A stretch of 64,000 bases of DNA from Anaerolineae bacterium (GTDB lineage: Bacteria; Chloroflexota; Anaerolineae; Aggregatilineales; Phototrophicaceae), in assembly GCA_022823165.1 (NCBI GenBank), contig JAJDXR010000019.1, forward strand, positions 1 to 64,000. Reading direction: 5' to 3'. Shown here one piece after another: positions 60,098 through 64,000 of this stretch; position 1 is the first letter of the stretch, and each line of letters begins with the position of its first letter. The notes beneath the pieces were generated by a model. The model did not search any database and was not told the origin of the DNA. It saw only the letters and a list, made by a program, of their open reading frames with translations. Position numbers and translations under genes: made by a program.

Positions 60098-60613
60098 TTA
60101 CGGCGCCACGATCCGGGTGAGGATATCCTCAAAAGCGGCATCAGCCAGGGCCTGTATTTCAGCATCGCTGCGGTCTTGAATCGGATGCCGCACATAGCAG
60201 GCGGCTGGTTCAAAGCCAAGCGCCTCGCCTTGCGCCGCAGCAGCCGCTACAAACTCGCTTGAAGCGACGAACACGCCGGGAATCCCGCGGGCTTCAAGGT
60301 CCGTGATGTCGTGCACACTGCACGACGTGCAGGAGCCTCAATCGGCCAGGGCTTCTATCACCACATCGCATTCGCTGGCGATCCGCTGCTTGAGGTCGAC
60401 TGGCGCCACGCGCGTGAAGGTCGGCTTCTCATAGCGCTGTGTTTCCACGCCGAGGCGCCGCAAATGCCGCTCCACGCGATCGAGGAAGACATCGCCGCGC
60501 GGCTTGGAAATGTCGAGCAAGGCGACGCGCTTGTCAGCCAGCGATGTCAGGCGCGGCAAGGCTTCGCGGGCAGCGGCTTGGCGTTCGCTGGTCGGGTCTA
60601 GCAACTTTGTCAT
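60098..60613 (-). CDS. UGSC-family selenoprotein (in-frame UGA at 60338-60340)
   Basis: 171 aa if UGA at residue 92 is read as selenocysteine. The first part (1-91) ends VVIEALAD. The reading frame continues past UGA as G-S-C-T-S-C-S-V-H-D and then ITDLEARGIPGVFVASSEFV to a TAA. This is exactly the U-G-S-C motif that gives the family its name. Start ATG with GGAGGAG upstream. UGA is a normal stop elsewhere in the window. A small hairpin (60318-60332) follows the codon. It lies 22 bp after the thioredoxin-fusion gene. The reaction is unknown; a redox role is inferred. Confidence 0.92.
60318..60332 (-). promoter_or_regulatory. Candidate bacterial SECIS hairpin for the UGSC gene
   Basis: On the minus strand CTGCAC-GTC-GTGCAG forms a 6-bp stem with a three-base loop whose first base is G. 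It starts 5 nt after the UGA. Bacterial SECIS elements are stem-loops just downstream of the UGA with a G at the start of the apical loop, so it fits, though its distance is at the short end. Confidence 0.5.
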
Positions 60614-60635
60614 TCTCTCCTCCGGCTCTACTCAT

Positions 60636-62105
60636 TTATAGTTTGATTGGGACCGTGACCGGGACGCTGCCCTTGGGCCCATTGGCGGCCCAGCCGGTAA
60701 TCACCGCCGACCACATGCCAGCGCCGCCGCCAGCGTGCGCGATCAGCAAACCGCCGGGCCGGAATTTGCGCAGGCGCTTGCCCGCCAGGCGCTCGGGCAT
60801 GCCGGCAGCAATGCCGTCGGCGCCCTGTATCACCGCGCGTCCATCCACAGTCGTGTGTTTGTCCAGCTCGCTGCGGAAGCGCGCCTTGCTCCAGCCGGCT
60901 TGGCGAAATACGCGCATATGCTCGGGCGAGATTATCAGCAGGGCATCGGCGCCGTTGTAGGCTTTGGCGTGGTGGACGGTGCGCAGCGACAGCGCCAGGC
61001 TGCGCGTCAGCGATTCGGGATTGCGGGAGGCCTGATCGCCGATGGGATGTAGGCCGCCGCCGGCGAAGAGCGTCACGGTTGATTCATCGGCTGCGAAACC
61101 CCGCTCCACCGCCAGCGATTCCCAGAAGGAGTCCTGCTCGCGCTCGGCGAAGCAAAAGCCGAGCTTGCCCGGCTGCCCCAGCGTCGCGCGATCGACGCCG
61201 CCCGGGCGCCCGCCGCCGACATTGCGAATCACCAACTGCAGCGCTCGCCCGATTGTGGAGTTGGCGCGATTGCCCTGCCCCAGCGCATTATGGCTGGCGT
61301 TCATGCCGATGCGCTCGCGGATGGGCCCGTTGACGATGATGATGGGCGCGGAAAAATAGGTGGTCGCCAGGACGCCGTGCATGCAGAATTCGTCGCGGCA
61401 AGCCGCCTCCACCGCCGCCAGGACAACCGGCAGATACTCTGGTTTGCAGCCAGCCATTACCGCGTTGATTGCCACTTTTTCGACTGTGCAAGGCGCATTG
61501 TCGGGCGGTATCACTCCCACAAGCTCTGAGGGCAAGCGCGCCGTCCCGGCCAACATGCGCAGCACCCGTTCTTCGGTCGGCGGGACGACCGGCAGACCGT
61601 CGGACCAGCCGCGTTCGTAGACAAGCTCATGTTCGTCTTGCTGCCTGGCCACCTCTATTCGGCGCGCTTGCAAGAGAGTGTCGCCGAATTTGAAGGCCAG
61701 TTTCTCGGGCAGGCCGGGATCAAGCGACTTCGAGCCGCAGCCGGGGCTGAATTTCGGCAAGTCTTCGCCGAGCGCAGGCATGGCAGTCAGCCGACGCCAG
61801 TCGTCCCGCTGCCAGCCGACCAGTCGCTCCGTCTCTTGCCCGGCTTTAATGCGAATCAGCGTGGGGACGATTTCAATCTGACGCCGATAAGAAAACTCAA
61901 GCTCCCGGTCGTCACGCACATCATCGACGCCGGGCGGAAATTGAGGGTCGTCTTGCGAGTAGACCAGCAAATTCTGTTCGCGGGCCATGGCGGGCAAGAC
62001 AGTTTCGATCAGCCGGCAGGTCGCGCAATCCTGCTTGACGACCGCGACGAAGCCGGTGAACTCACGGGGAATCATAGACTTCTTCTGTTGGTTTGCTGCT
62101 GCCAT
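60636..62105 (-). CDS. Thioredoxin-fold fusion protein of the UGSC locus
   Basis: 489 aa. Residues 15-110 look like thioredoxin: CATC (Cys27, Cys30) in VKQDCATCRLIETVLP and the cis-Pro loop IVPTLIRIKAG. Residues about 115-489 are a large domain I know only from uncharacterised proteins that travel with UGSC proteins: GWSDGLPVVPPTEERV, APCTVEKVAINAVMAGC, and Cys at 206, 220, 236 and 241. It could pass electrons to the UGSC protein encoded 22 bp downstream. The start may be the inner Met at 62075, which has AGAAG upstream. Confidence 0.75.
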   Translation of the reverse strand: MAAANQQKKSMIPREFTGFVAVVKQDCATCRLIETVLPAMAREQNLLVYSQDDPQFPPGVDDVRDDRELEFSYRRQIEIVPTLIRIKAGQETERLVGWQRDDWRRLTAMPALGEDLPKFSPGCGSKSLDPGLPEKLAFKFGDTLLQARRIEVARQQDEHELVYERGWSDGLPVVPPTEERVLRMLAGTARLPSELVGVIPPDNAPCTVEKVAINAVMAGCKPEYLPVVLAAVEAACRDEFCMHGVLATTYFSAPIIIVNGPIRERIGMNASHNALGQGNRANSTIGRALQLVIRNVGGGRPGGVDRATLGQPGKLGFCFAEREQDSFWESLAVERGFAADESTVTLFAGGGLHPIGDQASRNPESLTRSLALSLRTVHHAKAYNGADALLIISPEHMRVFRQAGWSKARFRSELDKHTTVDGRAVIQGADGIAAGMPERLAGKRLRKFRPGGLLIAHAGGGAGMWSAVITGWAANGPKGSVPVTVPIKL

Positions 62106-62157: not shown

Positions 62158-62463
62158 GGTGGATATTCCCTGAATGCCGAGCTTGGCACAGGTTAATTCA
62201 CCACAGAGACACAGAAGTAAGTGCGAGTAAGTAATGAGAATATAGGTACATCATCACAAAATAGCGAATTTCCGTGTTTGCGCGGGCGAGCCAAGGCTCG
62301 CCCCTACAACTTTCGGCTATATTTTGAACCCTGTAGGGGTCAGCCTTGGCTGACCCGATGCTGTGAAATTTGCATGACTTACTTTGTTCCACTGAGGACA
62401 CAGAGTCTTTTCTTTGGGTCGAAGGGAAACCGCATCCACTTCAATAGACACTCCCTCGCATCT
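62158..62463. repeat. Composite repeat, copy B
   Basis: Second copy of the repeat at 6213-6540, filling the gap between the thioredoxin fusion gene and the AhpD-like gene. Outer arms (62158-62218 and 62391-62463) are in the same direction as copy A. The right arm here is cleaner, with ACTGAGGACACAGAG followed by GGGTCGAAGGGAAACCGCAT. The CACAGAG-type words flanking the core suggest that a core unit inserted into an older CACAGAG repeat. Confidence 0.92.
62219..62390 (-). repeat. 172-bp repeat core, copy B (orientation 2)
   Basis: Reverse-complement counterpart of 6276-6447, same length. Here both palindromes are perfect: GGGCGAGCC-AA-GGCTCGCCC at 62284-62303 and GGGTCAGCC-TT-GGCTGACCC at 62337-62356. 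Adjacent CCCCTAC and GTAGGGG words face inward, so the core is itself roughly two-fold symmetric. Confidence 0.9.
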
Positions 62464-63285: not shown

Positions 63286-64000
63286 TCAGGCATCGACGAA
63301 GAGCGGCACACTCAGCTGCCAGGCAGTATAAAGCGCATGGAAGAAGGCCACAAACTCGCGGATGCAGGGGTCAGCGGCGTCCGCCTGCGACATTTGGAAG
63401 GCGTAGCCCGCGCGCCTTGCAAGCTCGGACGACGAGATCTCCTGGATTTCCGCGGCTTCCAGGTCGCGCTCAATCGCATGAACAAAGAGCAAGAGGATGC
63501 CGGCATGATTGGGGATGATGCGCTCGCCGACGCCGAAGATCATCTCCAGCAGCTGATCAGCCGAGACGCGCAACTCACCCAGCCGGACTTGGGGGGCGTC
63601 CGGCAGTTCGAAATAAGTTGGGCCTTCAGCCGCGTGATGGCCATCCGCATTGCGCAGCGCCTTGATTGAAGCGCCGTCATAACCCAAATTCTGAATGCCT
63701 TGGCGCAAGAGCAGCCAGACGAGCGGTTCGTCCGGCATTGGCAGCCGATCCAGCAGCCAGGTTTCGGCCAGCGCCGTGATCGGATATTGGATGAAGCCGG
63801 CGCAGCCATAGGGTCGGCCCGCGCGATTTGCCGGGCAACTCAGACAATGCTGGGCATGGTCGTCCAGCGCGGCCGCGTGATCGAGCAGGTCTTGCACGAC
63901 GATGAGCTGCTTGTCGCCGCTGTCGCTTGGCGTACTCTGGCTGAATTCGAAACCCATTTGCGCTGGCGGCCGTTCGTCGCCGGCGGCGCGAAACCACTCA
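63286..64000 (-). CDS. Cys-rich protein of unknown function, cut by the window edge
   Basis: At least 237 aa; the frame stays open to the right edge. If it starts at the Met at 63957 it has 223 aa, but the upstream residues are also codon-like. Notable are CLSCPANRAGRPYGCAGFIQ near residues 38-57 of the short form, with three Cys and a Cys-x2-Cys, and LGYDGASIKALRNADGHHAA. It ends 13 bp before the AhpD-like ATG, with the ribosome site of that gene between, so the two are probably cotranscribed. I do not recognise the family. Confidence 0.65.
   Translation of the reverse strand, partial: EWFRAAGDERPPAQMGFEFSQSTPSDSGDKQLIVVQDLLDHAAALDDHAQHCLSCPANRAGRPYGCAGFIQYPITALAETWLLDRLPMPDEPLVWLLLRQGIQNLGYDGASIKALRNADGHHAAEGPTYFELPDAPQVRLGELRVSADQLLEMIFGVGERIIPNHAGILLLFVHAIERDLEAAEIQEISSSELARRAGYAFQMSQADAADPCIREFVAFFHALYTAWQLSVPLFVDA

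Follow-up and report, generated by a model that had tools for sequence, protein, structure and literature searches.

Does an in-frame UGA end the translation of a short gene in an Anaerolineae bacterium, or is it read as selenocysteine (Sec), and what might the resulting protein do? The question is raised by a 64,000-nt stretch of DNA (assembly GCA_022823165.1, contig JAJDXR010000019.1, positions 1 to 64,000), hereafter designated as the window, which carries on its minus strand a gene of the UGSC family with a UGA at the position of the U in the U-G-S-C motif. The product of this gene is almost certainly a selenoprotein, as judged from comparative sequence evidence, and very likely one that has a dedicated partner encoded just upstream. 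The reaction that the two proteins may catalyse is proposed far more tentatively, by analogy with glycine reductase.

The UGSC gene and its in-frame UGA

The gene (60098..60613, minus strand) encodes 171 amino acids between an ATG at 60613-60611 and a TAA at 60100-60098, and is preceded by a ribosome-binding-site-like sequence, GGAGGAGAGA (60614..60623, minus). Translated with UGA as Sec, the frame (M...VAP) contains a single UGA, at codon 92 (60338..60340, minus), which lies within ...EALAD-U-GSCTSCSVHD... and is followed by 79 codons; frame translation bore out the coordinates, the U-G-S-C motif and the 79 further codons given in the initial annotation of the window. The joined protein scored 141.4 bits against the Pfam UGSC family PF24696 (E 4e-41, cut-off 25 bits) and 147.6 bits against NCBIfam NF041046 (cut-off 125), and by both cut-offs its sequence clearly places it in the UGSC family, with which it shares the U-G-S-C motif, the UGA and a hairpin resembling a Sec insertion sequence (SECIS). 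UGSC-containing proteins were described by Zhang and Gladyshev in 2008 and are among the most abundant aquatic selenoprotein families, with 255 Sec and 21 Cys forms in the Global Ocean Sampling (GOS) data (PMC2398784). The function of the family is still uncharacterised (PMC13188914).

The host genome (G000; 4.1 Mb in 94 contigs) has the machinery that a Sec reading calls for, and for which a search had been proposed in the initial annotation. It encodes a tRNA-Sec with the anticodon TCA (UCA), together with SelA, SelB and SelD, each above its family cut-off. SelD (L014:1483-2544, plus strand) is also a selenoprotein, with an in-frame UGA at U17 (MQQTAIKLTALASCAGU).

The UGA is widely conserved. 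Among 400 genomes of the host phylum, nearly all of the ca. 90 UGSC matches contain exactly one TGA, and its occurrence in the window is therefore not due to chance. A UGSC gene with a UGA was likewise found in 75 of 80 GTDB loci retrieved through the neighbouring partner gene, and almost every UGSC homologue, in many phyla, has the UGA at the same position. In Geodermatophilus obscurus (L124) and a Blastococcus (L058), the Sec codon is TAG instead, and the tRNA-Sec detected in each with the Rfam tRNA-Sec model has the anticodon CTA (CUA). The use of UAG for Sec with tRNA-Sec(CUA) was already reported in Geodermatophilaceae, UGSC proteins included (PMC5330540). These proteins belong to the same family as the one encoded in the window and share its Sec position and hairpin, but combine UAG with tRNA-Sec(CUA) where the host combines UGA with UCA; this swap provides independent support for the Sec position in UGSC. 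Codons past the UGA are under purifying selection, with nonsynonymous rates (dN) of 0.10-0.31 against synonymous rates (dS) of 1.0-1.7. Forms lacking Sec were sought in the retrieved loci and were limited to two UGSC-like domains, one in L170 (minus), which has Cys in place of Sec (GLGACWGTS), and a degenerate, fused copy in L167 (5891-6361, plus), which has neither (GFGDTRSGS).

A hairpin with an 8-bp stem and a GUG triloop, GUCGUGCA-GUG-UGCACGAC, is found at +14 to +32 from the U of the UGA (60308..60326, minus; fold z -2.13). Across 52 distinct homologue sequences, 91.6% of cells pair, and both sides have changed at five of the eight stem pairs, giving 18 double-change cells against 3.1 after shuffling, with 0 of 500 shuffles reaching 18. 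The covariation score was 0.228 against 0.110 for shuffled data, and slid versions of the hairpin scored lower. Of 88 homologues, 87 have xGT as the loop codon (+21), and all 72 serines at this codon are encoded by AGT, which makes up about 15% of the Ser codons of these genes, the 72 included. The window hairpin folds at -12.4 kcal/mol, compared with -3.3 kcal/mol under synonymous shuffling (P 0.01), and the mean z for the family in this codon-preserving test is -2.4. This AGT bias, a stability beyond the synonymous null and the covariation together point to a constraint that acts on the RNA and not on the protein alone, and an element located 14-32 nt past the UGA fits a bacterial SECIS.

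The Sec machinery, the UGA in homologues, the covarying hairpin, the purifying selection and the codon swap all support the Sec assignment put forward in the initial annotation. The alternative that the UGA is a genuine stop would leave a pseudogene or a truncated product of 91 amino acids, perhaps with re-initiation at a downstream GTG (60316), and the standard code does split the frame into two open reading frames (ORFs), 60338-60613 and 60098-60316. Yet selection on the codons past the UGA, the presence of the same UGA in nearly all homologues of many phyla and a genome encoding the Sec machinery already largely refute this view, which we consider extremely improbable. That a sequencing or assembly error turned a Cys or Ser codon into TGA, as a draft genome in 94 contigs might suggest, is less credible still and in practice excluded, as the initial annotation had anticipated, since independent genomes from many phyla share the UGA, Geodermatophilus and Blastococcus have UAG there and a covarying hairpin goes with this codon.

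A conserved partner gene

Located 22 nt upstream of the UGSC gene, the partner gene (60636..62105, minus) encodes 489 amino acids, and its linkage with UGSC is conserved. Its product has two regions. The first is a thioredoxin-like domain at residues 8-109 (61779..62084, minus) containing the motif C27-A-T-C30, which was recognised from an AlphaFold2 (AF2) model with a predicted local distance difference test (pLDDT) score of 92, a VIA-align Z of 9.7 to thioredoxins and a phmmer match (E 0.006). The second is a UGSC-associated domain of ca. 350 amino acids (60639..61691, minus), marked by the motifs DGLPVVPPT, VEKVAINAVMAGC and GMNxxxNxLGxGxRAN. Sequence searches of Pfam, NCBIfam and PDB returned no match for this domain, and relaxing the Pfam and NCBIfam thresholds gave nothing credible. 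Foldseek matches of the full-length partner model were filled by thioredoxins; weak matches to class I fumarase in the same search were rejected as implausible (E ca. 0.005, template-modelling (TM) score ca. 0.2, root-mean-square deviation (rmsd) 14-19). The closest relatives of the partner are found in metagenome-assembled genomes labelled Anaerolineae and Chloroflexi (L045-L047), from which the host would probably be placed in the Chloroflexota.

The association of the two genes is close. The ca. 350-residue domain adjoins UGSC in most loci of the host phylum, and in the GTDB set 78 of 80 loci contain both. UGSC lies on the same strand, at most 350 nt downstream of the partner, in 72 of the 80, is divergent in three and further off in three; one of the two loci without UGSC (L073) reaches the contig end just past a UGSC start. 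UGSC and the partner domain also occur within a single protein in 12 cases (L044, L160-L166, L168, L169 and two copies in L167), seen in distant members, and 11 of these 12 read through a UGA. A fusion between UGSC and a domain called Unknown_1 is mentioned in the 2008 paper (PMC2398784), and Unknown_1 may be the same domain as the ca. 350-residue region of the partner. In the UGSC literature examined, neither the conserved partner gene nor a relation to the glycine reductase protein GrdB is stated, the family itself having been known since 2008.

The UxxCxxC form of UGSC accompanies 8 of 8 partners from the phylum in which a thioredoxin domain could be detected, versus 5 of 18 other partners. 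In 9 of the 80 GTDB loci, the pair is flanked by selA and selB, these two genes being named from sequence and not by profile search. Genomes of the phylum contain up to nine UGSC paralogues, and in multi-copy genomes the pair occurs near genes for Amidohydro_2, luciferase-like monooxygenase and coenzyme A (CoA)-transferase III proteins, catabolic-type neighbours that fit a role in catabolism but prove nothing.

Predicted fold, kinship with GrdB and possible function

The UGSC model (pLDDT 93.5) consists of five strands alternating with helices, with Sec92 at the N-terminus of the helix that follows the third strand. A PDB sequence search with UGSC returned no match, and Foldseek and VIA-align comparisons of the model retrieved flavodoxin, receiver, PurE and other Rossmann-like folds. 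The predicted fold thus appears to be flavodoxin- or Rossmann-like, which speaks against the thioredoxin-like fold suggested in print.

Profile comparison by hhalign aligned UGSC with GrdB (94.9%, E 4e-8), the Sec motifs of the two being superposed, and no signal was obtained with GrdE, used as a negative control. The GrdB employed came from the same phylum and was read through its own UGA (AT-U-GTCTRCG), and GrdB models matched, with an E of 0.01 or lower, 34 of the 57 UGSC members. This profile evidence makes UGSC a homologue of the Sec domain that forms the C-terminal part of GrdB in glycine reductase. With GrdB (PF07355 / TIGR01917) and the D-proline reductase protein PrdB it shares a UxxC(xxC) motif placed behind a hydrophobic strand, but it lacks the ca. 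350-residue GRDB domain that precedes Sec in GrdB: PF07355 had no match in UGSC and none in the host genome. The GrdE-type domain PF09338 is also absent from that genome, which in contrast to glycine reductase systems has neither GrdB nor GrdE.

Based on this kinship, a mechanism can be outlined. SelB would deliver Sec-tRNA at the UGA, and UGSC would act as the selenolate subunit of a two-component reductase formed with the partner. The Sec selenolate would attack or reduce a substrate lodged where UGSC meets the ca. 350-residue domain of the partner; Sec92 would then form a selenenylsulfide with Cys95, with Cys98 as a possible relay, and this bond would be re-reduced by thioredoxin, namely the CATC domain of the partner, in cis where fused. 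Thioredoxin is also the electron donor of glycine reductase. The analogy with GrdB suggests that a carbon-heteroatom bond may be cleaved reductively, and such GrdB-like reductase chemistry is regarded here as a fair conjecture with somewhat less than even prospects. We suggest, with rather more reserve, that UGSC and its partner, which often includes a thioredoxin domain of its own, might represent a new class of selenoenzyme made of two components. This enzyme would be a compact relative of glycine reductase that is distributed in many bacterial phyla, reaches as many as nine paralogues in certain genomes of the phylum and clusters with selA and selB in some. With the partner, the fusions and the GrdB kinship, the "unknown redox protein" becomes an enzyme of two subunits that can be tested, and these features also argue against a thioredoxin fold.

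Several points weigh against the reading of the locus as a whole. The alignment with GrdB covers 78-118 columns surrounding the Sec motif, and the comparison profile was built from two GrdB sequences only. The partner was considered as a relative of GrdE or GrdB and this was rejected, its ca. 350-residue domain having no homology to either at the profile level. Many homologues have no fused thioredoxin domain, so that another reductant must be possible. Finally, the Rfam search returned no SECIS match, and the hairpin was judged by its position, loop and covariation.

UGSC might instead be an ordinary redox protein, such as a general antioxidant or a disulfide reductase, in line with the published thioredoxin-like view, and not a GrdB-like substrate reductase. 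The UxxC motif and the thioredoxin domain of the partner are consistent with this explanation, but the five-stranded alternating alpha/beta model matching flavodoxin, receiver and PurE-like folds, and the profile homology to GrdB, are not what it would lead one to expect. That the partner is large and obligate, and that a genome may contain as many as nine paralogues, some of them beside catabolic genes, better fits a substrate-specific enzyme, and a role as an ordinary redox protein is considered unlikely.

Even more doubtful is the idea that UGSC and its partner bind a metal or cluster through UxxCxxCxxHD, like proteins of the methyl-coenzyme M reductase (MCR) activation complex, and serve in cofactor or metal handling. 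It draws on the best structural match of the UGSC model, 8s7v chain H of that complex (VIA-align Z 12.1, 129 residues, 2.8 A), which stands ca. 2 above the next row, and on the report that the complex includes McrC and Mmp7, with nitrogenase-like iron-sulfur (FeS) clusters (PMC12176620). Yet across UGSC subfamilies nothing in this motif but U and the first Cys is constant, the UGSCSAA and UGSCTSW forms lacking the second Cys and the His. Chain H, which is not identified by name and is probably Mmp7 as inferred from its residue length, has a similar fold but no sequence match, its function and motif are unrelated to those of UGSC as far as tested, and the shared Rossmann-like fold is a common one.

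As a separate observation, short frames in four loci of the same phylum (L138, L139, L140 and L142) match GRDB residues 204-347 only and stop exactly at the Sec site of GrdB; a PNCxH-like sequence lies past that stop in L139 and L142. These frames probably correspond to PrdB/GrdB-like selenoproteins.

Neighbouring genes

The second in-frame UGA reported near UGSC in the initial annotation is real. It belongs to an AhpD/peroxidase-related gene (TIGR01926; 62668..63273, minus) with a CxxU motif and a UGA at 62988-62986, past which lies a hairpin whose loop is AGUU; in the phylum, several homologues likewise have one TGA within the match. With a gap of ca. 560 nt, this gene is probably a separate transcription unit from the UGSC pair. 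In routine annotation, it and the UGSC gene would both be called truncated. Another AhpD-like gene with one in-frame TGA is present in the same genome (G000:C93:7185-7736, minus), which brings the likely selenoprotein genes to at least four (UGSC, SelD and the two AhpD-like genes). Upstream of the AhpD-like gene of the window, a 223-amino acid ORF (63286-63957, minus) contains CLSCPANRAGRPYGCAG and has no Pfam or NCBIfam match. The intergenic region between the two selenoprotein genes (62250-62400) contains repeats resembling repetitive extragenic palindromic (REP) sequences, including the palindromic GGGCGAGCCTTGGCTCGCCC and GGGTCAGCCAAGGCTGACCC.
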